Origin: Kluyveromyces lactis
Lineage: Eukaryota; Ascomycota; Saccharomycetes; Saccharomycetales; Saccharomycetaceae
DNA length: 64,000 bases
Assembly: GCF_000002515.2 (NCBI RefSeq)
Contig: NC_006041.1
Span: 496,001-560,000, forward strand
Direction: 5' to 3'
Part shown: positions 49,879 through 61,731 of the stretch, piece by piece
Layout: each line of letters opens with the position of its first letter
How positions within the stretch are numbered: the first letter of the stretch is position 1
Translations under genes and position numbers: made by a program
The notes under the pieces: model-generated
Databases searched by the model: none
The model's input: only the letters and a program-made list of their open reading frames with translations
What the model was told of the DNA's origin: nothing

Positions 49879-52800
49879 ATGGACCCACAGCAACCGGCAT
49901 CCGATAATTCTGAATGGCAGTTTCAGGTCAGTCCTGGCGCTGCTTGGAATTTAAGAGCACAAGCCAGGAGGGGCCAGACAGGCAGCAGGGATGCAATTCC
50001 GTTAAGAGTGGATGAGCTGACGGATGAGAATGAGCTTAATTGGGAGGCTCTTAATAATAGGAATCTTAGCATTCTTGGAAACGATACCCTTTCTGATATT
50101 TTCAGATCAAATCAACTGATCAATAACGGAACTAACGATAATAATAGTAATAACAATATCGACGGTGAAATACTGAATACTACAGGAACTGACGAAGATA
50201 ACAGAAGAAGTACTGATATAGATAATAATACCGCTGACCATTTCGAAGAATTGACGCGGGGAGCTGCTCGTGAAGCTAACTTATCGAGGGAAAGTGCTCA
50301 TGTATCTTCTGGTCTGCCTGCTGACTGGTTTACTACCATGAATCCTAGTAAACTGTCTTTACACCAAAGACCATTTTTGGCTAGAGAGCGGAAATCCGCC
50401 CTTAGTGGCATTGCACAAATTGAAGATGATTTAAGACAGTTGTTTGAAAACATAGAAAAAGAAGGATGGAAATTACCACCGATCGAAGGTGATTCTGAAC
50501 AATTACAAGAATATTTTGATAAACACAAAATCGATATGAGGGCAAGACAAAATATTGAGAATTTTGTTCTCAAAATGCAAAAAGAAGCATTAGATGACAG
50601 CTCTAACTGGACCGAAAAGGAAGCGTTGTTGGATTTCTTACTGAAGCAAGTCCAACTTACACCAGAAGACACTACAGCATTAAGTGAAATTGTCGAACTT
50701 TCAAGATACAGATTTAAATTTGCATTAGGTATTATAGAATTAAGAAAAAACTATCTTAAGGAGTCTTTGCAGCTAGGAATCCAGCGACTTCGTGACCTAA
50801 ACTATTCAGCATTTTTAGCGGAGAGTAATTTGTCGACGGAAGTTGTTGAACATCTAAAATCAACAATTATGAAACAGCAAAGAGTTATTTTAAGGGCAAT
50901 CGAAATGGAACTCTATTCTCTACATTCCTATCAAGAAAAATATTCGGAAATTATCAAAAGGATGGCGAGATCGATACATGACTACTATAAAAGAAAGAAT
51001 ACCAACCCTAACGTACCAAATCCTATTTATTACTATCGCGATTTGTTTTTGAAATACTCTCCTTGGACAAAAAGAGGATTGGACTTGGCTTTATATGATA
51101 TGCATGTCTCAGAAGAGGAATGGAAGTTTATGTCTAATCACGTGAGAAGCCAGTTGCCCCAGATGCTCTCAATGGTTTCTAAAGATAATGCATTATATAC
51201 CAGAATCAAAACACCAAAGAACACTTTCCCGTTATCTGATCTTCCTCATGAAATCCTAGCAATGGTTTTAGAAGCAAAAAGTCAAAAAGCCAATATTGTT
51301 CCCTTAATGGCTGTTTCTAAGGCTTGGGCTGAAGTCATTGCAAAACTCATATATTATCGTCCCCATATCAATAAACAGCAGCAATTGAATTCTTTTTTGA
51401 TTACCATGAGCAAGCCTAAGGAAGAGACGCTATTTGATTACAGGAGCTTGATAAAACGTTTAAATTTTTCATTCGTTGGTGACTATATGACAGATAGAAA
51501 ACTAGAACATTTCATTGGGTGTCCTAACCTTGAAAGACTTACTTTGGTTTTCTGTAAATATATTACAACCAAATCTGTGGCAAAAGTTTTAAAGGGTTGT
51601 CAATATTTACAAAGTGTCGACATAACTGGTATTCATCACATTAGAGATGATTTGTTTGAAGTATTAGCATCGGATTGTGAGAGGATTCAGGGACTTTATG
51701 TTCCTCATTCAAACGATGTCTCACCTAATGCTATCTCGAATTTTATCACTCACGCGCCGATGTTAAAACGTGTCAAAATAACTTTTAATCAATCTATTGA
51801 AAATGATTTGGTGATGAAAATGGTCAAATGTTGTCCATTTCTCGTAGAGGTGGATTTAACGTCAACACCGAATATTGATAATCATGGCTTGGTTACGCTA
51901 TTCACCTCTTTACCTCAATTAAGAGAAATCAGAGTCACGCATAACACGAACATCACCGATGAGTTTATGTTGGCGGTTTCTCAGGAAACCATGGGATTAC
52001 CTGCATTAAGACTAGTCGACTTCTCTGGTTGCGAAAACATCACGGACAAGACAATTGATAAACTTGTTACTTTAGCACCCAAGCTAAGAAACTTATTTTT
52101 GGGGAAATGCAGCCGTATCACAGATTCCGCTCTAAAGTCGTTGGCAAGATTGGGAAAAAATATACAGACAATGCATTTTGGTCACTGTTTCAATATTTCA
52201 GATGAAGGTGTCAGGGTTTTAGTAAGCAATTGCCCCAAGATTCAATATATCGATTTTGCTTGTTGCACCAATTTGACAAACAAAACCCTTTACGAACTCG
52301 CTGAGTTGCCCAAACTTAAAAGAATAGGTATGGTTAAGTGCTCTCAGATTACAGATGAGGGACTTTTAACAATGATAAGCATTCGCGGAAGGAATGACAC
52401 GTTAGAGAGAGTCCATCTATCTTACTGTACCAGTCTAACGATCTATCCTATATATGAATTGTTGATGGCATGCCCCAAGTTATCGCACTTATCGCTAACT
52501 GCAGTTCCATCTTTTCTTCGTCCCGATATCACGCAGTTTTGTCGTTCTCCCCCCAGTGAATTTACCGCTAATCAAAGGCAGATATTCTGTGTATTTTCCG
52601 GAAAGGGCGTTCATAAGTTGCGTCATCATTTAATGGGTATTCATGAACCTACCGATGGACCTAGCACCAAATCTGACGAAATTTTCATCAGCTTTTTAAA
52701 AAACAAAAACGCAATACAGTCTGACACTATTGAAGATGAGGATCTTGAAAGGTTATCCCATAACGCCGATCTTGATTCTGCCGCATTGTTTGCAGCTTCT

Positions 52801-53598
52801 GCAGTCTTCAATTTCGCTAATGAGCCTTTTAACCAAATTGAATTTGCTCATCTTGACCATGTATTCTCATCCATGCTGATAACTTCTGAAGATGAGCATG
52901 TTGTAAGCTCTGCTGATCTTACTGCACTGGAAGATTTCGACCGATCTTTTTACGATAATCCGCTTGATCCAAGGTTTACGGATAGATATGTTACGGTTGC
53001 ACCACCGGCTTCTTCTAATATTAATAATGAACTCGCTGATGTTATAAGGAAATTCCGTAAAATATTGAATCGTGTGTTAGATTTTGAAGTCAATGTCGCC
53101 AGTTTATGCAGGATCCAATTCCAATATTGTGGTACGTTAATTGCAGAAATGTCTTCGATTTACATAACATTCGTCGATTTAAACAGATATATCTCAGAAA
53201 TATATCAGAGAATTAAAGCTTCAGAAGAGCCAAAAGACCTCTTAGGATTTGTGCTGTGGAAAAAGTGGTGGTCACCTTGCTTCAAGGATTTAATGAGAAA
53301 TTTTAAGATTACAGCTTTAGTGTTGAGAATTTACGTGAAGGAAAGTTTGACAGTACTTACCCGTCAAAGAGAATTGGTTTTACAACGTGCCAGGGAAACA
53401 TGGGACAGAGAGGCTGCTAATGATCTTCCTGACGGAGAGGGAGATATTGACATGGGTGTCAATATGCTATTACCACCAGGAGGAACTGTGGCTGAAGAAA
53501 CTGATAACAATGATAATAATATAGATTTGAGGCTCTTCTTACCTCCCGGAAACGAACAGAATAGAGAAACTCCGGATGATCAAATCATTGAGGAGTAA
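49879..53598 (+). CDS. GRR1: SCF F-box protein Grr1
   Basis: Substrate receptor of the SCF ubiquitin ligase. Targets include G1 cyclins, Mth1 and Gic2, so it links glucose sensing to the cell cycle. The 1239 residues (1151 in S. cerevisiae) have an Asn-rich, disordered N-terminus and helical region up to about 440. The F-box lies at about 449-498 (FPLSDLPHEILAMVL, then AVSKAWAEVI). About twelve Cys-type leucine-rich repeats cover 540-875, each like LVDFSGCENITDKTIDKL. A long C-terminal domain and an acidic tail end the protein. In K. lactis, GRR1 acts on the hexose transporter gene RAG1. Order JSN1-GRR1-BIR1 matches YJR091C-YJR090C-YJR089W. Confidence 0.96.
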   Translation: MDPQQPASDNSEWQFQVSPGAAWNLRAQARRGQTGSRDAIPLRVDELTDENELNWEALNNRNLSILGNDTLSDIFRSNQLINNGTNDNNSNNNIDGEILNTTGTDEDNRRSTDIDNNTADHFEELTRGAAREANLSRESAHVSSGLPADWFTTMNPSKLSLHQRPFLARERKSALSGIAQIEDDLRQLFENIEKEGWKLPPIEGDSEQLQEYFDKHKIDMRARQNIENFVLKMQKEALDDSSNWTEKEALLDFLLKQVQLTPEDTTALSEIVELSRYRFKFALGIIELRKNYLKESLQLGIQRLRDLNYSAFLAESNLSTEVVEHLKSTIMKQQRVILRAIEMELYSLHSYQEKYSEIIKRMARSIHDYYKRKNTNPNVPNPIYYYRDLFLKYSPWTKRGLDLALYDMHVSEEEWKFMSNHVRSQLPQMLSMVSKDNALYTRIKTPKNTFPLSDLPHEILAMVLEAKSQKANIVPLMAVSKAWAEVIAKLIYYRPHINKQQQLNSFLITMSKPKEETLFDYRSLIKRLNFSFVGDYMTDRKLEHFIGCPNLERLTLVFCKYITTKSVAKVLKGCQYLQSVDITGIHHIRDDLFEVLASDCERIQGLYVPHSNDVSPNAISNFITHAPMLKRVKITFNQSIENDLVMKMVKCCPFLVEVDLTSTPNIDNHGLVTLFTSLPQLREIRVTHNTNITDEFMLAVSQETMGLPALRLVDFSGCENITDKTIDKLVTLAPKLRNLFLGKCSRITDSALKSLARLGKNIQTMHFGHCFNISDEGVRVLVSNCPKIQYIDFACCTNLTNKTLYELAELPKLKRIGMVKCSQITDEGLLTMISIRGRNDTLERVHLSYCTSLTIYPIYELLMACPKLSHLSLTAVPSFLRPDITQFCRSPPSEFTANQRQIFCVFSGKGVHKLRHHLMGIHEPTDGPSTKSDEIFISFLKNKNAIQSDTIEDEDLERLSHNADLDSAALFAASAVFNFANEPFNQIEFAHLDHVFSSMLITSEDEHVVSSADLTALEDFDRSFYDNPLDPRFTDRYVTVAPPASSNINNELADVIRKFRKILNRVLDFEVNVASLCRIQFQYCGTLIAEMSSIYITFVDLNRYISEIYQRIKASEEPKDLLGFVLWKKWWSPCFKDLMRNFKITALVLRIYVKESLTVLTRQRELVLQRARETWDREAANDLPDGEGDIDMGVNMLLPPGGTVAEETDNNDNNIDLRLFLPPGNEQNRETPDDQIIEE

Positions 53599-53774: not shown

Positions 53775-56111
53775 TCAGAAGTCAATATTAAACCTATTAG
53801 CAAACTCAAGCAAGACGGAGTCGTCATCGATTTGCTGTATGAATTCCTTTGCTGTTGAGAATTGTCGTTGTAATGTCTCTATTTTTGTATTAATGGTGGT
53901 TTCAAAAGATTCAAAAATCTCCTTTCCTTTCTGATCAATCCAGTTCTTGAAGTTCAGGGCAAGCTCCTCATTAGGCATGCTGTTTATGAAAAAAGTCAGC
54001 TCACCCGTTAAATCAGAAGCCAATGAAGCATCAATTCTATTCATGTACAATAACAGATCGCTGAAATACTTATTAAGTGTTAAGACATCCTCACTCAAGG
54101 AAGTTAGCTCACTGTTATGTAATACGTTCCATTTTGGTAGGCTTTCAATAGGAGTGGTCTGCGTTATTGATTCTGCATCTTGGTATTTTTGATCCAGATG
54201 TGGGTGATCCGTAGAATGGTTAGAATTGTTAATGACAGCTTTAGTGTCCACGTCTGGTGAGGAGGGAAATGGTGCGAAAGATACTTTTGGCTTGTTGGAG
54301 GGCGATACATCTGGTGTTCCTTGCCCGTTGACATCTTGGAATGTTAAAGATAAAGACCATTCATCTGATAATCGGTTTGAAGTTCTTCGCTCCGTGTTAT
54401 CCGCACCCAAATTGTTAGCGTGACTTTCGACTAGCTCATTGCTAATATCGGCACCCTGTTCCATTCTATTTTGAGCTCTTGAAACGTCATTGGCGAGTTC
54501 TGGCTCATCTATTGGATTCTGCTTAGGCCGAAGCAAATCTCGTTCACGATCTGGTAAACTTTGAACAGGTGATGAATGAACTCCGTCCTGGTTGTCATTG
54601 GGAGAGTAATCACTATCATTTTCACTTTCATCGCTGAATGCTATATCAGTATCAATAAGTTCCAGTTGCTCTTTTAAAGGCTTCATTGGGCTTGATTTTT
54701 CGGTTTTATTCTTTTTACTGCTCTGAGCAGGGAACGCCTCTTCAGGTATCACAAAGTTGCTCGTTCCATTGTTGTCAAAACTGAAGACATCATAACTGTC
54801 ATCCAAGATTGTGTTGGGTTTTGTGGCTTTTTCTTTGTTCTTCTTAAAGTCTAAGAAAACATCTTTATTCTTTTCAACAGATTGCATAAATGAAGTTTCT
54901 CCCACCTGGGAACCCTTGGAGTCATTAATCCCTAATTGAGCTGCTGTCTTCGCAAGTTTTATTTTTTTCTTTGGAGAAGCTTCTAATTGATCCTTTTGTT
55001 GCATTCTGCAACTTATAATGTCATTTAGTGTCCATTGATTTTCAGGTAACTTTTCGGTGTTAGAAGCAGATTGATTTTTATCTTTATTGTCTTTGTCCTT
55101 TGGTGGACGCCCTCTGGGTCTTTTTATCTTTGGCTCCGCAGTCTCATCTCGTAATTTTTTTGGTCTTCCTCTTTTCCGAGGTGCTTGTGTCTGAATTGCG
55201 CTGTCAGTGCCTCTTTGAAGTTGATCAGATGCTGTGTTATCACCAAACTCTATTCGGCCCTTATCTGCTCGATGATCTGATTGTACTTTTTCGAGCGGGT
55301 CAACTTCAGGTTTATAAGAGTCATCTGATGATAATGATGTTGAACCTTTGCTACTATACGCTGAAATGCTGTCCGTCACTCCCGCAATACTACTTGACGC
55401 ACAATGTATACTTTTTCGTTGGCTATTATCTTTAACCGGGGAAGATTCAAGTTCACTCACGTCACTCCGGTGTGACGACTTTTTAGGATCAAAGGTATCT
55501 CTGGAAGAGATTAGATTTGGGTAGTTATCTTTCTTATGTAGGATCTTTTCAATCTTAAGTTTCATATCATTTGAGTAGTTCATATCTTCATGCAATTGTT
55601 CTGTCCTTACGCTCACAATCGATTCAGTTTTCTTGGGTCGTCCTCGTTTCTTTGGCTGAATTGGAATTGGAAGAACATTGTGAGAATGCTTAGCTCTCGA
55701 AGCTTTTGGAATACCTCCTGATGTGTCCTGGATATTGTTATTATTATCAGTGGTAGTATTCTTCTTAGATTCTGAAGTAAAAGATATATTAGTTGGATCA
55801 ATTAGAGATTTTCTAGGCCTTCCTCGCCGTTTCTTTACCGGAAGACCATTTTCATCCAATATAGGTTCTTTTTTGGCGCTTTTACGAGCTTCTGTGGTTG
55901 GGTTCTTTCGTGGTCGTCCTCGTTGTTTTTTGATTGGATTTCCATTTGCATCTAATTCAACCGGTACAACAGGTTTAGTTCTCGGTCTACCACGTTTACG
56001 CTTTTCTGCTTTGGGCAATTTAGGCGTGTTCAAAGAGCCTATTTGCTGCAAACTCGATTCCTCTGACAGGAATGAAAGATCCATTGCAGACGAGAGGTTG
56101 GAATCATTCAT
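53775..56111 (-). CDS. BIR1: BIR1 positional orthologue with AT-hooks and no BIR domain
   Basis: By position and strand this is BIR1 (YJR089W), the survivin-like chromosomal passenger subunit that binds Sli15 and the kinetochore. The 778-residue protein (954 in S. cerevisiae) has no BIR fold: the N-terminal 235 residues contain no Cys, so the Cys3-His zinc site is absent. Instead there are six AT-hook cores RGRP at about 40, 64, 96, 156, 314 and 333, and the first three sit in a near-repeat. The middle is acidic and Ser-rich. The last 130 residues are ordered helices (TGELTFFINSM, ALNFKNWIDQKG), where the Sli15-binding part of Bir1 would be. The name rests on synteny plus this C-terminal layout. 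A rapidly evolving DNA-binding protein unrelated to Bir1 is the alternative. Confidence 0.6.
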   Translation of the reverse strand: MNDSNLSSAMDLSFLSEESSLQQIGSLNTPKLPKAEKRKRGRPRTKPVVPVELDANGNPIKKQRGRPRKNPTTEARKSAKKEPILDENGLPVKKRRGRPRKSLIDPTNISFTSESKKNTTTDNNNNIQDTSGGIPKASRAKHSHNVLPIPIQPKKRGRPKKTESIVSVRTEQLHEDMNYSNDMKLKIEKILHKKDNYPNLISSRDTFDPKKSSHRSDVSELESSPVKDNSQRKSIHCASSSIAGVTDSISAYSSKGSTSLSSDDSYKPEVDPLEKVQSDHRADKGRIEFGDNTASDQLQRGTDSAIQTQAPRKRGRPKKLRDETAEPKIKRPRGRPPKDKDNKDKNQSASNTEKLPENQWTLNDIISCRMQQKDQLEASPKKKIKLAKTAAQLGINDSKGSQVGETSFMQSVEKNKDVFLDFKKNKEKATKPNTILDDSYDVFSFDNNGTSNFVIPEEAFPAQSSKKNKTEKSSPMKPLKEQLELIDTDIAFSDESENDSDYSPNDNQDGVHSSPVQSLPDRERDLLRPKQNPIDEPELANDVSRAQNRMEQGADISNELVESHANNLGADNTERRTSNRLSDEWSLSLTFQDVNGQGTPDVSPSNKPKVSFAPFPSSPDVDTKAVINNSNHSTDHPHLDQKYQDAESITQTTPIESLPKWNVLHNSELTSLSEDVLTLNKYFSDLLLYMNRIDASLASDLTGELTFFINSMPNEELALNFKNWIDQKGKEIFESFETTINTKIETLQRQFSTAKEFIQQIDDDSVLLEFANRFNIDF

Positions 56112-56685
56112 TGTTACAGTACGCCATAGAAATCAAACCTACAGATCATTCATGTAATGAAACCGTCTGATGAAAGTGTATTTTTACTCTTCTTCCAACA
56201 AGATTCGCACCCTATTCTTCTCTTTTGACAGGACCTAGTATTCTTCTTGTCCATTCAGGATGTAAATATGATTTGATCTCAAATTGTGTCTTCTTTTTCC
56301 ACGAAAGTGTAAACAAAAGAGAGAAAAGGATCATCACAGCTGAATATTGAAAGACAATAAATAGGTTATAAGAAGACAAGGGCAGGTCGGCACGGCGCAC
56401 CTATCAGTGCCATTCTTGAGCCGCTAATGATGTATGCGCAAGGTCATGAATGTATTAAACATATGCGTATATATGATAGTATACATACAGTATTTTACAG
56501 AGCTAAAGGATAAATATTGAAGAGATTTAGTTCGCTCTTGATAAAATGAAAATGATATTTATTCTGTTAATGCAAAACAAGGAGATGGTTAGGATGATAA
56601 ATAGAAAACGAAACACCGAAAAATCTGGTTAAAATTTGAATAGTATTTGAACTTTGACCATTTTCTTATAAGATCATGATTTTCT
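56112..56685. other. BIR1 upstream region / TIF5 3' flank
   Basis: 574 bases with no BIR-domain remnant in any frame I read. A 62-codon minus-strand frame (56212-56400) shows no family features. TATATA-rich sequence lies near 56467. Confidence 0.5.
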
Positions 56686-57882
56686 TTATTCCGAATCCTC
56701 ATCATCTTCTTCGGCAGTTTTCAACCAAGTGATGAATGGCTTGGCAGCTCTACGAACCTTCTTAGAAACATCCTTTGGTACAAACTTCTTAGAGCATTTG
56801 GTACCGAAGCTGATAATCTCTTCTTCGGAAATGATGTCGTTGTTGTATAATTGGACCAAGATCTTTGGTAGTAATGGGATCAATTCTTGGTGATCAAGTC
56901 CAAGGAATCTTTCAATACCACCCAAAAAGTTCTTTTCGAAGTCTTCGTCCTTCAATAATTTTTGCAAGAACGCAGTATGTTCAGAGATATCCGATACGAT
57001 ATCTTCATCGAAAAGAACTTGGGCCAGAACTGCAGCAACCTTTGGATCTTCCAGAAGCTCGAGTTCTGCAATCTTTTTGTATAATTCAATATCGGTAGGT
57101 AGTTCTTCTTCATGTAGTACCCATTCACCAAATTCTTCCAACTTGGAGAATTCGCCAGTTTCTTTGTCAGCTTCACCTTGTAATTCTTTCGCACGAGCTC
57201 TGATGGCTTCTTCAGACATATCAACGGCCCAGTCCTCATCCTTGACTTCAATGGTAGCCAAGTTAGAGGCAGCGGCATTAATTTGTCTGGCCAATTCATC
57301 ATCATCGGAATCGTTTTCTTCGGCATCGTCACCAGCTTCAGCTTGGGATTTACCTTGAGCGATATCACTAATAGAAAGACCACCACCTCTGACATTAGCA
57401 GACGCAGTGGCAGCCTTCTTCTTTTTCTTGGAACCGTTCATACTGTCAGGAGGGTTCTTTAAGACGAACGAGGACAACTTATGTCTCAAATCCATAGGGG
57501 TTCTCTTACCACAAGCTTTACAGTCTCTAACCAAATCACCATCTTTAGTGATAACAATTTCAGTTTCAGGATTCTTACAGGATCCACAAAGGACAAACTT
57601 AGTGATGAAACCATCCAATACGTCCTGTAATTTGGCTGGTTGATGAGCACCATTGACAATGTAACGATCATTTTCAACATTGATAGCAGTTTGGGCACCC
57701 AATTCAAACCCGAAATATTTGATGATGTATGGAGCTGGTCTGTTTAAAGCACGGGCAACATCCATGGTATTCATAACAACAGTTTTGATACCATTACCTC
57801 TACCTTCAATCTTAGCCTGAATTGGAGGCATTTTATAACGGTAGAAAGGGTCATTGTTGTCTCTGCAAATATTGATTGACAT
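56686..57882 (-). CDS. TIF5: translation initiation factor eIF5
   Basis: GTPase-activating protein for eIF2 in the 43S preinitiation complex, acting at start-codon recognition. The 398 residues (405 in S. cerevisiae) begin with the GAP domain, including catalytic Arg15 in DPFYRYKMPP. A zinc ribbon with Cys99, Cys102, Cys121 and Cys124 follows. An acidic linker with DDAEENDSDDD precedes the C-terminal HEAT/W2 domain (about 240-390), whose acidic-aromatic end EEDDEDSE binds eIF3 and eIF2beta. Codon bias is high. It matches YPR041W, with TIP41 (YPR040W) further along, and BIR1 and EMC2 from the chromosome X copy lie between. Confidence 0.97.
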   Translation of the reverse strand: MSINICRDNNDPFYRYKMPPIQAKIEGRGNGIKTVVMNTMDVARALNRPAPYIIKYFGFELGAQTAINVENDRYIVNGAHQPAKLQDVLDGFITKFVLCGSCKNPETEIVITKDGDLVRDCKACGKRTPMDLRHKLSSFVLKNPPDSMNGSKKKKKAATASANVRGGGLSISDIAQGKSQAEAGDDAEENDSDDDELARQINAAASNLATIEVKDEDWAVDMSEEAIRARAKELQGEADKETGEFSKLEEFGEWVLHEEELPTDIELYKKIAELELLEDPKVAAVLAQVLFDEDIVSDISEHTAFLQKLLKDEDFEKNFLGGIERFLGLDHQELIPLLPKILVQLYNNDIISEEEIISFGTKCSKKFVPKDVSKKVRRAAKPFITWLKTAEEDDEDSE

Positions 57883-58412
57883 CTTCGGCTACTGTTACTA
57901 ATCTCTAGTCACTTGTTTCTGCTACCACCGTGTCTTTGACGTTCTTCAAGTCTGGAAAACACAAAAACTTTTAAAAGTAAGTTCGAACTGATCCTGTATT
58001 GGACTGTAAAACGGGGTCATTAACGCCTTCTTGAATCATGTATATGGAAGAAGTTCATCTCATCTCTTAGAAGTTCAACTTCAACTCTTCGCGTGTGGCA
58101 ATCAGATACTGAGGCCTTGATTCCTGAAAAATTTTCGTCGTTTATGGTGATATGAAAATACATGTCGAAACGGAGCATGTGTCACGTGCTTTAGCTCCAA
58201 CGATTCATTTGGCTCTGTGATTGTTTAAGCATCGGTTCTGTAAGAGACATATTACAGGGTATAACATGGGTGAGATACGTATGGTGGTGTTAAATGTTTG
58301 AATACCTTCAATACAATTACTGCTCGTGGAATTTAGTGAGTAATTTACTGTGTTGAAATTGTGCTCGAATCTCACATACATCTTAGGGTCGAAATCTAAC
58401 TTTGTTCATATC
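57883..58412. other. TIF5/EMC2 divergent promoter region
   Basis: 530 bases with one CACGTG (58183-58188). The frame of EMC2 runs back to a GTG at 58350, but there is no conserved sequence before ATG 58413. Confidence 0.5.
58183..58188. promoter_or_regulatory. CACGTG between TIF5 and EMC2
   Basis: Cbf1-type core about 300 bases from TIF5 and 225 from EMC2. Confidence 0.35.
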
Positions 58413-59273
58413 ATGGATTTACTTAAGAACAAATTACTGGCAATCCATAAGACTGGCGCATGGGCCATTCTGCCACCTAAAGAAATTGATTTGGCTTATA
58501 AGGAAACGAAACTTTTGATAGATGCTGGGTTAAATGGGCTTGACGAAATTAGTTATTTCTCAATGGTCGAATTATTGTTTTATCTTTGTCTTGTTCGTGG
58601 TGAAGACACAGAGGCTGAAACATTGTACAAAACTGTGACAGATCGTCTAGGTGACGATTCTCCAAGAATTCATGTGATGCACTCTATGTTAATACAGGTC
58701 ACTCGATCCGATGATGCGGCTAAGAAATATATCGAGGATTTGATCAAGAATCAGCTGGAAATAGCTACTGATTCAGAAGACTACGTACAGATGAAGAAAA
58801 GGCTACTTGCGATAGAGAGACCTTCGATGAGTAAAGAAAAATGGGTAAAAGAACTACTGGATCTGGTTGAGAAGTTTCCTCTAGATGCAGAAATATGGTC
58901 GTTACTTTCGCAAGAATACCAGGAGGCTGGGGACCTACGTCAAGCAATATATTGCATGGAAGAAGTCATAATTGGGGTGCCGTTCAGTTATGAAGCATTT
59001 GGTCAATTAGCTTATTTGCATTACTTGAAGTCTCAATCAGATTCTGACCCTGAAGCTGCTTTGCAATCAAGTTTATCAAATGCGTTGAGATCTGTTGAGT
59101 TGGCAGAAGCCTACGTGAAAGGTTGGGGTATTGTATTGAAGACATCTCAGAAACTGAATAAAAAACCTGAATTAACTCAATTAGCTGTAAGAAAATTGCA
59201 AGAACTTCAGCAAAATAATGATAACAGAGAAATCACTAACGTATCCAGATACCTTTTGGATTCAGAAACTTGA
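58413..59273 (+). CDS. EMC2: ER membrane protein complex subunit 2
   Basis: Cytosolic TPR scaffold of the ER membrane protein complex, which inserts tail-anchored and multipass proteins. 286 residues from the first ATG (292 in S. cerevisiae). It shows collinear TPR helices and the conserved KFPLDAEIWSLLSQEYQEAG and NALRSVELAEAYVKGW. An in-frame GTG at 58350 is discounted. It is divergent from TIF5 and convergent with TIP41. In S. cerevisiae it is YJR088C, next to BIR1, consistent with the interleaved order here. Confidence 0.93.
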   Translation: MDLLKNKLLAIHKTGAWAILPPKEIDLAYKETKLLIDAGLNGLDEISYFSMVELLFYLCLVRGEDTEAETLYKTVTDRLGDDSPRIHVMHSMLIQVTRSDDAAKKYIEDLIKNQLEIATDSEDYVQMKKRLLAIERPSMSKEKWVKELLDLVEKFPLDAEIWSLLSQEYQEAGDLRQAIYCMEEVIIGVPFSYEAFGQLAYLHYLKSQSDSDPEAALQSSLSNALRSVELAEAYVKGWGIVLKTSQKLNKKPELTQLAVRKLQELQQNNDNREITNVSRYLLDSET

Positions 59274-59426
59274 ATAGTGTGTATATAATATTATCACATG
59301 TATTACGAGATTTGTATATTATTCCTTTTGGGTAACATAATTAAATAGGTAGATTCATGAATGAGCAAATCAACTCTTTCTTGAATTTTCCAAAAGTGCT
59401 GTCAATTCGACAGTAGCGGTGAGTGC

Positions 59427-60638
59427 TTATTCGACAACTTCTTCTATATCTTCTTTTTTCCTCAATACTTCACATACGCGCTCCTTCAAAGGTAATACAG
59501 ACGCAACCCAGTTGCTGTCTCTCAAAGATTTCTTAGGATCGTTTGAATTTAATCTACATTTATTCAATACTGTCTTGTAATCATCCTCCATATATTTCCA
59601 TTCCCGTACAACAAGGTCCTCATTGAATTCGACATATATTCTTGTATCAATGATTTTAAACAAGACCTCATCGACTCTTAGGAAGAATCTGCATAATAAA
59701 AGAAGTCTCTCTGCCATTACCCTAAGTTTTATCGAAAGCATACTGATACCGTTGTCTGCCAATTCATCTTCAAATAGAATGAAATCATCATAGAATAAAA
59801 TGGGATCTCTTCTTGTTAATTTTTCTATTGGAAGCTGATACTGGTTATCCACAACAAACTTGTATTCACTATCTTCTGACACAGTCCCATTGTATAAAGT
59901 CGTATAGGACCAATCCCAATGTTTTCCGAATTGTAATCCTTCCTCTGTGTTTGTCACTTGACTATTCTTAAGTTTGGAATTGATCCATTTCTCGGAATAT
60001 GACACTCTTAACCCAGAATCCCCAAGTTTTACTTGACTAAGTGCATGGAACGGATTGAATCGTATGCACCAATGAGTCTTGGTGTTCTTCAATTCAACGC
60101 TGGAATGACCAAAAATCATTTCTGGGATTGGGAACTTCAATTTCTCAGTCCAATCGTCGATCTCATCACTAGAAAGAATAGGCCTCTTCGTCGTGGTGAT
60201 AGTCCAATCACCTACACTTACAGATGGGTCATCTTTCGCTGGTATTGTGGCTACAGGGGATGGAACAATGACTGTACCGCAATGGCCACAATTTGGATTA
60301 TTCGGATTATTCGATCTATGTGGGTGTGTATGAGTGTGCTTATGATCATGTTCGTGAGAGCGCTTGGAGCTCGGTTTGGGCATGCTAGTGGCTACTGTAA
60401 CCGACTGTGTATCTTGGAAACTTGAGTTCGTGGTGGTACCACCGACAGTAGTATTGGTCGTGCGCATCATAGAACTTTGTATCTCGGTTTCTCTTGGCTG
60501 CTGCGGATTGCCGGGGTGACGCGCCCTTACCGTAGCCTGAAACATTTCACGAGCCTGGTTAACCTGTATCATAGGAATACCGCTCCCAAGAGATCTTCTG
60601 TTCCTGGCATTGTTCTGAGGCTGACTCTTATCACTCAT
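59427..60638 (-). CDS. TIP41: TOR-pathway regulator Tip41
   Basis: Binds Tap42 and type-2A phosphatase catalytic subunits and promotes phosphatase activity when TORC1 is inhibited. The 403 residues (356 in S. cerevisiae) start with a disordered N-terminus of about 150 residues rich in Asn, Thr and His, including a His run at 95-107. The TIP41-like domain follows, with PEMIFGHSSVELKN, WCIRFNPFHALS and DPILFYDDFILFEDELADNG. It matches YPR040W next to TIF5 (YPR041W) on the same strand. It is divergent from ERV2. Confidence 0.95.
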   Translation of the reverse strand: MSDKSQPQNNARNRRSLGSGIPMIQVNQAREMFQATVRARHPGNPQQPRETEIQSSMMRTTNTTVGGTTTNSSFQDTQSVTVATSMPKPSSKRSHEHDHKHTHTHPHRSNNPNNPNCGHCGTVIVPSPVATIPAKDDPSVSVGDWTITTTKRPILSSDEIDDWTEKLKFPIPEMIFGHSSVELKNTKTHWCIRFNPFHALSQVKLGDSGLRVSYSEKWINSKLKNSQVTNTEEGLQFGKHWDWSYTTLYNGTVSEDSEYKFVVDNQYQLPIEKLTRRDPILFYDDFILFEDELADNGISMLSIKLRVMAERLLLLCRFFLRVDEVLFKIIDTRIYVEFNEDLVVREWKYMEDDYKTVLNKCRLNSNDPKKSLRDSNWVASVLPLKERVCEVLRKKEDIEEVVE

Positions 60639-61119
60639 TTTGGCATGTGTATTTCCCCTGATCGCTCAGATTCCTGTCGTATAATAAAACTAGTGAAATT
60701 AATCCCTATGCAAATTTTCTTGGCTATTAGCGTGAGAACAAAATGACGTTCAACGCTTGTAATCCAGTGGGAATATTAATTAGTTTGAAGTTTTATCAGG
60801 GGCTGAAACAATGATCGTAGTCCTTTTTGCAACGTTTCCTTTCCACCACAAATCTTCAATTAAGAGATGTCTTGCATGCTGGAATATTGATTCTTATAAA
60901 TCTCAATATCAATAGAAAAAAGGTTACAGTCGAAAAATATTGGAAGATCGTAAAAGTAGTAAGGAATGTATTAATACGTGATTGACACCTTAGTGTAACA
61001 ATATGGGAACAAAGTTATCTACCGAGGAGCCGTACATACACCTTACAGAGTTGTTATCCCTCTGCTATTCTCTATTATTTCTAAAAGCATACTTTCCTTG
61101 ATCAGATTGAACAACGGAT
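60639..61119. other. TIP41/ERV2 divergent promoter region
   Basis: 481 bases; I see no gene and no strong regulator motif. Confidence 0.5.
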
Positions 61120-61731
61120 ATGTCAATCAAGCTAAAGGTAGGACTGCATAAGCAGCGGATCGTTACAATAACTACGCTTCTAATGATAGGCTTGCTATGG
61201 TTTACATTTTCTAATAGCCAGCTACCTATTGAGGGGTCACCATCGTTGGGTGGTACCAAATCCGATCTGTTTGGAGGACTAAGTGCGAACGCGAAGAACG
61301 ATGATGCATCAGGTACGATTATGCCGAAGATGCCTGATCAGGAGGCGAAAAAGGCTTTGGGGCGGGCTTCATGGAAATATTTCCACACTCTTTTAGCCAG
61401 ATTTCCCGACGAGCCTACAGAGCAAGAGAAAACGAAACTACGTGAATTTCTTTACCTATATGCGGAGTTATATCCATGTGGCGAATGTTCTTACCATTTC
61501 GTCAAGATGTTGAAGAAATACCCACCACAAGTAGCCAGTAGAACCACTGCTGCTTTATGGGGCTGTCATATTCATAATCTAGTGAACGATCATCTTGAAA
61601 AACCAAGGTACGATTGTAACACAATCTTAGAAGATTACGACTGTGGATGCACTGACGAGAACGGTAATATCGATCCATCTTTGAAAATGAACAAAGTAAC
61701 GTTGAACAAAGAGGAGAAACAATTGGGATGA
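61120..61731 (+). CDS. ERV2: ER sulfhydryl oxidase Erv2
   Basis: FAD-dependent thiol oxidase of the ER lumen that makes disulfides with oxygen as acceptor and passes them to PDI. The 203 residues (196 in S. cerevisiae) have an N-terminal signal anchor at about 15-30 and the ERV/ALR domain. The FAD-proximal pair is Cys120-Cys123 in YPCGECSYH. HxxN-type haem-like FAD contacts occur in HIHNLVND, and the shuttle pair is Cys175-Cys177 in DYDCGC. All redox cysteines are present. It corresponds to YPR037C. The Mpd1-like protein at 4522 is a possible distant substrate in the same compartment; that link is only inference. Confidence 0.95.
   Translation: MSIKLKVGLHKQRIVTITTLLMIGLLWFTFSNSQLPIEGSPSLGGTKSDLFGGLSANAKNDDASGTIMPKMPDQEAKKALGRASWKYFHTLLARFPDEPTEQEKTKLREFLYLYAELYPCGECSYHFVKMLKKYPPQVASRTTAALWGCHIHNLVNDHLEKPRYDCNTILEDYDCGCTDENGNIDPSLKMNKVTLNKEEKQLG

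Follow-up and report, generated by a model that had tools for sequence, protein, structure and literature searches.

The BIR domain gives its name to this subunit of the chromosomal passenger complex (CPC) and is the part of human survivin credited with positioning Aurora B. Can a yeast Bir1 exist without it, and what is then left of the protein? These questions are raised by an ORF in a 64,000-nucleotide stretch of Kluyveromyces lactis DNA, here called the window (C5:496001-560000 of a searched genome of 10,729,447 bases in 7 contigs). An earlier note, prepared from the letters of this DNA, had read the ORF as a BIR1 orthologue in which the BIR domains were swapped for AT-hooks. The ORF encodes 778 aa and occupies exactly the position and strand that the note had given it, in the following setting.

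49879 to 53598, plus strand: GRR1-like F-box/LRR protein, convergent (Pfam LRR_4 above cut-off, F-box-like just under)
53775 to 56111, minus strand: Bir1 orthologue without a BIR, 778 aa (ORF; C-terminal-half profile; sole genome match of two BIR-bearing Bir1s)
56112 to 56685, no strand: intergenic stretch from the Bir1 ATG to the TIF5 stop (six-frame translation and BIR profiles: no BIR exon on either strand)
56686 to 57882, minus strand: TIF5 (eIF5) (Pfam eIF-5_eIF-2B and W2)

The Pfam domains of the adjoining genes fit GRR1 and TIF5, and the neighbourhood is thus the one described before. The F-box/LRR gene is presumed to be GRR1, as in the earlier note, and so is EMC2 for the 286-aa ORF past TIF5, in which a Pfam search found no domain. 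The S. cerevisiae gene order around BIR1 fits the GRR1 side as well as the TIF5/EMC2 side. Across window 56686-61731, TIF5 separates BIR1 from the EMC2-like gene, which is followed by TIP41 and a gene of Erv1/Alr type; we take the S. cerevisiae orthologues of TIF5, TIP41 and Erv1/Alr to lie in the other duplicated region, i.e. the order here to be the pre-duplication one.

The C-terminal half of the protein identifies it. A profile of the C-terminal halves of 12 Bir1s that have a BIR (four from Lachancea, three from Saccharomyces, and P0007, P0013, P0017, P0020 and P0021) finds the window protein at E 3.7e-53 and also picks up the other eight proteins of the Kluyveromyces/Eremothecium clade and that of Naumovozyma, while at E up to 10 it matches 0 of 200 shuffles and neither of two unrelated AT-hook proteins (P0014 and P0015, which served solely as negatives for the profile searches). 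When full-length Lachancea fermentati Bir1 is run against the whole genome, its sole match is C5:549784-550983 (window 53784-54983), through query residues 751-913 and 470-680, and P0021, probably S. cerevisiae Bir1, likewise has the window Bir1 locus as its sole match, via query residues 660-967. The window protein's best database match, at 93% identity, bears the name Bir1 [Kluyveromyces lactis]. The homologue set may be incomplete, since two of the three homologue searches scored only the candidates with the most shared words. The comparison with yeast Bir1 C-termini that had been proposed as a check thus returned strong similarity rather than none, and at the level of sequence the ORF is confirmed as a Bir1 (survivin) orthologue by descent, as the earlier note had it.

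The N-terminal half is another matter. The 778 aa hold only two Cys, at residues 237 and 368, with no CxxC, no Pfam BIR and no match to BIR profiles; the Cys-Cys-His-Cys of the BIR zinc fold is lacking, and the protein is therefore not filed among BIR-domain (IAP/survivin) proteins. The earlier claim that so Cys-poor an N-terminus makes a BIR fold impossible holds good. A profile of the BIR region, drawn from four Lachancea proteins, recovers all 13 BIR-bearing proteins (the four in the profile and 9 of 9 others), the weakest being that of Naumovozyma at E 2.9e-35, whose BIR Pfam scores just below its cut-off, and it matches 0 of the 9 proteins of the Kluyveromyces/Eremothecium clade. In six frames of the window, BIR profiles find nothing (best E 0.73 with the four-protein profile and 0.11 with a nine-protein one), and every one of the six frames is interrupted by stops in the 574 bp that separate TIF5 from the Bir1 ATG, where no BIR match occurs either. 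In the genome, the BIR part of L. fermentati Bir1 or of P0021 matches nothing at E up to 10, and residues 1-230 of L. fermentati Bir1, used by themselves, are equally without a match. For two query Bir1s, the BIR part (265 aa) outscores the C-terminal part (170 aa) against 12 of 12 other BIR-bearing proteins; a BIR gene should thus be easier to detect than the tail that was actually found. Pfam is a poorer guide here. Genome searches with Pfam Nbl1 and with NDC10_II (Ndc10 domain 2), each run without a positive control, were empty, and since a K. lactis Ndc10 is known, the latter result is probably a false negative and an empty Pfam search of this genome carries little weight. A Pfam BIR negative is therefore insufficient by itself, and the absence of the BIR rests on the searches with BIR-bearing Bir1s and BIR profiles.

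The loss extends beyond K. lactis. In the survey of Kluyveromyces and Eremothecium that the earlier note had called for, the BIR is absent throughout, in 9 of 9 proteins of this clade with the window's included, and it is present in 13 of 13 Bir1s from Lachancea, Saccharomyces and others. One of the nine, P0006, has 618 aa on a 4,131-base contig and seems to lack its N-terminal part, so that it should not count towards the loss; this leaves eight BIR-less proteins, the window's among them. When the C-terminal halves are placed in a midpoint-rooted tree (22 rows, 448 columns; P0013 and P0024 on long branches), the BIR-less proteins make up one side of a single branch with support 91/92, which does not reach the tool's star at 95/80. 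A single BIR change suffices in 92% of 200 bootstrap trees, and 0 of 500 shuffles are as low. The tree also places P0004, P0005 and P0006 in the Kluyveromyces clade and groups P0020 and P0021 with the Saccharomyces Bir1s (P0019, P0022 and P0023). Most simply, the pattern fits one deletion of the BIR tandem in the ancestor that Kluyveromyces and Eremothecium share. We found no report of a BIR-less Bir1 in these genera among the listed titles and abstract openings of the openly licensed literature; it may be reported elsewhere. A separate case is P0024 (Naumovozyma dairenensis NDAI_0D00570), which has a divergent BIR with one Pfam stretch just under cut-off and no AT-hook core.

In the region that precedes the conserved half, the window protein carries six RGRP cores (residues 40, 64, 96, 156, 314 and 333), as the earlier note had counted in the N-terminal half, whereas 20,000 composition shuffles average 0.004 and never exceed 2.

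55983 to 55994, minus strand: AT-hook core 1, RGRP, residues 40-43 (core identical in four lineages)
55911 to 55922, minus strand: AT-hook core 2, residues 64-67 (pattern and conservation)
55815 to 55826, minus strand: AT-hook core 3, residues 96-99 (pattern and conservation)
55635 to 55646, minus strand: AT-hook core 4, residues 156-159 (not in all four lineages; best Pfam AT_hook stretch 153-163)
55161 to 55172, minus strand: AT-hook core 5, residues 314-317 (falls on a hook of Lachancea in the alignment)
55104 to 55115, minus strand: AT-hook core 6, residues 333-336 (falls on a hook of Lachancea in the alignment)

AT_hook is the only Pfam domain in the protein (E 9.7e-05, 22.3 bits against a cut-off of 17.4), which therefore has the sequence marks of an AT-hook protein, namely a GRP core flanked by basic residues and a Pfam score over the cut-off. 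Conservation was counted over four Kluyveromyces-clade lineages (P0001, P0003, P0004 and P0005; the near-copy P0002 and the truncated P0006 were left out). The hook columns are identical at 36 of 54 positions (67%) against 27 of 341 (8%) in the rest of residues 1-414, and the RGRP core is retained across the four lineages in five of the six hooks. By pattern, the Kluyveromyces-clade proteins have 6, 6, 5, 5, 7 and 3 cores (the 3 in the truncated protein), those of Eremothecium 7, 6 and 7, those of Lachancea together with P0007 4, 4, 4, 4 and 3, P0013 has 3 and P0017 has 5 (one RGKP included), and five Saccharomyces-group Bir1s and one Naumovozyma Bir1 have none. Pfam AT_hook scores above cut-off in the window protein, P0002, P0005, P0007, P0008 and P0010 and below it in P0003, P0004, P0006, P0011, P0013 and P0018; the listings for P0017 and the three Eremothecium proteins do not contain it, and the hooks of these are called by pattern only.

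What else is retained can be read from the alignment of the 22 Bir1s and from predicted structure.

56055 to 56111, minus strand: N-terminal peptide MNDSNLSSAMDLSFLSEES, residues 1-19 (the two BIRs begin here in BIR-bearing relatives)
54732 to 54869, minus strand: central motif around ILDDSYDVFSFDNNGTSNFVIP, residues 415-460 (common to the 22 aligned Bir1s; invariant columns)
54633 to 54665, minus strand: second short motif (L..I......S), residues 483-493 (L483 and I486 invariant, S493 nearly so)
53778 to 54116, minus strand: C-terminal helical domain, residues 666-778 (matches the C-terminal region of BIR-bearing Bir1s by profile and BLAST)

At the N terminus, 11 of the first 19 columns are identical across the four Kluyveromyces-clade lineages, against the same background of 27 in 341, and this conservation supports the annotated ATG as the true start. 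The peptide, SSxMDLSFxSxE, is kept throughout the Kluyveromyces clade and is not seen in the aligned Eremothecium or BIR-bearing Bir1s; judging by its conservation, it is possibly a short binding motif. The central motif is identical in those lineages at 31 of 46 columns and the C-terminal region at 43 of 138. The consensus of the central motif, ILDDSxDxFSFxxxGxxxFxIP, runs through all 22 aligned yeast Bir1s and within the Kluyveromyces clade exceeds the C-terminal domain in conservation; we know of no name for it. A PDB sequence search with the whole protein gave no match at E up to 10. AlphaFold predicts long disorder (whole-protein mean pLDDT 44.7) together with helices at 666-693, 721-760 and 764-773, with blocks of the tail reaching pLDDT 93, and the C-terminus is helical in both models, bearing out, as a prediction, the helical C-terminus proposed earlier.

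The partners with which such a protein would work are partly visible in the genome. It encodes an INCENP-box protein (Sli15) in an open 674-aa ORF and a shugoshin with N- and C-terminal Pfam domains. A Pfam search for haspin gave 17 matches, one of them above cut-off.

L004:1486-3573, C3 about 999481-1000572, minus strand: haspin-family protein (sole haspin match above cut-off)

Its catalytic loop reads FEHRLLTLDHVLI against FEHRDLHWGNVLL in human haspin, in an alignment that is weak overall (E 8.6e-07) and unbroken at the loop. The Asp of the HRD motif and a later Asn are catalytic-loop residues of haspin, and when aligned to the human protein the K. lactis one has Leu at the former and His at the latter. 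On these substitutions, the sole above-cut-off haspin may be a pseudokinase. If loss of the Asp were general to the BIR-less genera, writer and reader of H3T3ph would have been lost together.

Five candidate point centromeres with CDEI-CDEII-CDEIII spacing were found (L014, L015, L021, L026 and L027), with CDEIIs of 162-165 bp and 86.1-90.9% AT. A first pattern gave two matches, of which L012 is the same place as L021 and L013 was dropped as not AT-rich by eye; a second gave four, of which L014 and L015 were kept and L017 is the L021 site; a third gave 11, of which L021, L026 and L027 were kept by eye for AT-richness. L016 was dropped as a centromere, with three mismatches and no CCGAA. K. lactis presumably has six nuclear chromosomes, and no sixth candidate was found among the pattern matches in the genome. 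The CDEII of Eremothecium is given as about 160 bp, twice that of S. cerevisiae (PMC3276169), and CDEII length as varying twofold between species and little within them (PMC3141009); the latter paper also reports that no consensus centromere was found in N. castellii. Long CDEIIs, BIR loss and hook number might conceivably be linked.

How, then, is the CPC placed without a BIR, as it must be in Kluyveromyces and Eremothecium, whose Bir1s lack one? We lean towards a reading in which the BIR tandem was lost once and the CPC is docked by the Bir1 tail and central motif, aided by contact of the AT-hooks with DNA. What remains of Bir1 is, by prediction, a largely disordered protein in which the AT-hooks are inherited and constrained and which keeps the central motif common to the compared yeast Bir1s and a helical C-terminus. 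Going by homology and the known yeast CPC, this C-terminus would form a three-helix core with Sli15 and Nbl1. The BIR loss would be tolerated because budding yeasts would be independent of phospho-H3T3 for CPC recruitment, and the remaining contacts would be Ndc10-Bir1, Sgo1 and Ctf19-Sli15, along the recruitment routes described in PMC6546395 and PMC8094117. PMC8094117 states that budding yeast lacks the phospho-H3T3 route, which PMC4607871 calls unclear in yeast, and according to PMC6546395 the Sgo1/H2A route was so far established only in fission yeast. Thus, of the earlier statement that an H3-tail-reading domain was lost, the disappearance of the BIR stands, and that the domain read the H3 tail in a budding yeast is put in doubt by the same sources. 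The central motif would be the best candidate for contact with Ndc10 or for another shared contact, and through the hooks Bir1 may also touch AT-rich DNA directly in the minor groove, the long CDEII of the point centromere or its flanks being the most plausible site; Mif2 is described as touching CDEII via an AT-hook (PMC13079627). The anatomy is directly visible in the alignments; the contacts of tail with CPC core, central motif with kinetochore and hooks with DNA are what we infer from it.

Two other accounts of the missing BIR fare poorly. One may argue that a BIR exon is present and was missed, or that a second BIR gene exists, the loss being an annotation artefact, and the genome does hold one Pfam BIR stretch below cut-off (E 0.26), at a locus without a complete ATG-started ORF of 80 aa. 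Against this, there are stops in all six frames upstream and the BIR searches of genome and window are empty, including the search for another BIR gene that the earlier note had asked for, by Pfam BIR and by BIR-bearing Bir1s; moreover, the BIR-less state recurs in three Eremothecium proteins and in K. dobzhanskii, and the start peptide is kept in the Kluyveromyces clade. We reject the artefact as almost certainly wrong. That AT-hooks replaced the BIR as chromatin reader, which was the earlier note's own explanation, might draw on the 5-7 cores of full-length BIR-less proteins compared with 3-5 in hook-carrying BIR-bearing ones. However, two Pfam BIR stretches and 3-5 cores occur in one and the same protein in four Lachancea Bir1s, P0007, P0013 and P0017, and in the alignment the final pair of Kluyveromyces hooks falls on the final pair of P0007 and of the Lachancea proteins P0008, P0010 and P0011. 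Hooks that coexist with the BIR in Lachancea predate its loss, were not acquired as its replacement and at most expanded later, which makes a simple swap very improbable, and it too is rejected.

A more serious rival has the BIR lost under relaxed constraint, the hooks serving general chromatin retention or being basic patches (e.g. for nuclear import), and the CPC placed entirely by contacts of Ndc10, Sgo1 and Ctf19. It agrees with the reported absence of the H3T3ph route (PMC8094117) and with the reported suppression of Bir1 loss by Sli15 without its N-terminus (PMC6546395). It also agrees with the absence of hook cores from Saccharomyces-group Bir1s, which, together with that from the Naumovozyma Bir1, makes hooks dispensable for yeast CPC function in general; the predicted hooks could act genome-wide instead of at centromeres. 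Nevertheless, hook columns so much more conserved than their surroundings and five of six RGRP cores kept in four lineages are more than a plain basic patch would require, and we consider this account somewhat unlikely. Bolder, and in our judgement quite unlikely, is the conjecture that the Kluyveromyces-Eremothecium lineage dismantled the phospho-H3T3 axis (the BIR and, at least in K. lactis, the haspin Asp) and came to tether the CPC through Bir1 AT-hooks on CDEII, so that reading of a mark would have given way to reading of DNA.

Docking by tail and central motif with help from the hooks remains the reading that we prefer. The interest of the comparison is that a natural BIR loss, which extends over two genera and leaves the rest of the protein in place, sets the core role of Bir1 apart from what depends on reading by the BIR, and a BIR-less Bir1 in culturable point-centromere yeasts makes the role of the budding-yeast BIR directly testable. 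Among known systems, Lachancea Bir1 (L. fermentati LAFE_0B10330g, P0018) shares with the window protein the central motif, the second motif, the C-terminal domain and AT-hook cores, which in Lachancea lie between BIR and central motif, but has two N-terminal Pfam BIR stretches. Saccharomyces Bir1 (P0019-P0023) shares the central motif and the C-terminus (the last 170 residues of P0021 match at E 5e-19), whereas it has two Pfam BIR stretches and no AT-hook core. The Bir1s of Eremothecium (E. gossypii AER399C, P0016; E. cymbalariae Ecym_4672, P0009; E. sinecaudum HHR227W, P0012) are BIR-less like that of the window, with 6-7 cores by pattern and the same C-terminal half, but they start differently at the N terminus and more than half of their cores are PGRP. 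S. cerevisiae Mif2/CENP-C directs an AT-hook at AT-rich CDEII (PMC13079627), as proposed for the window Bir1; it belongs to another family and is not a CPC subunit, and the comparison is a functional one only. Finally, human survivin holds the same place in the CPC as Bir1 (PMC4607871), but the H3T3ph-reading BIR that is its defining part has no counterpart in the window Bir1.
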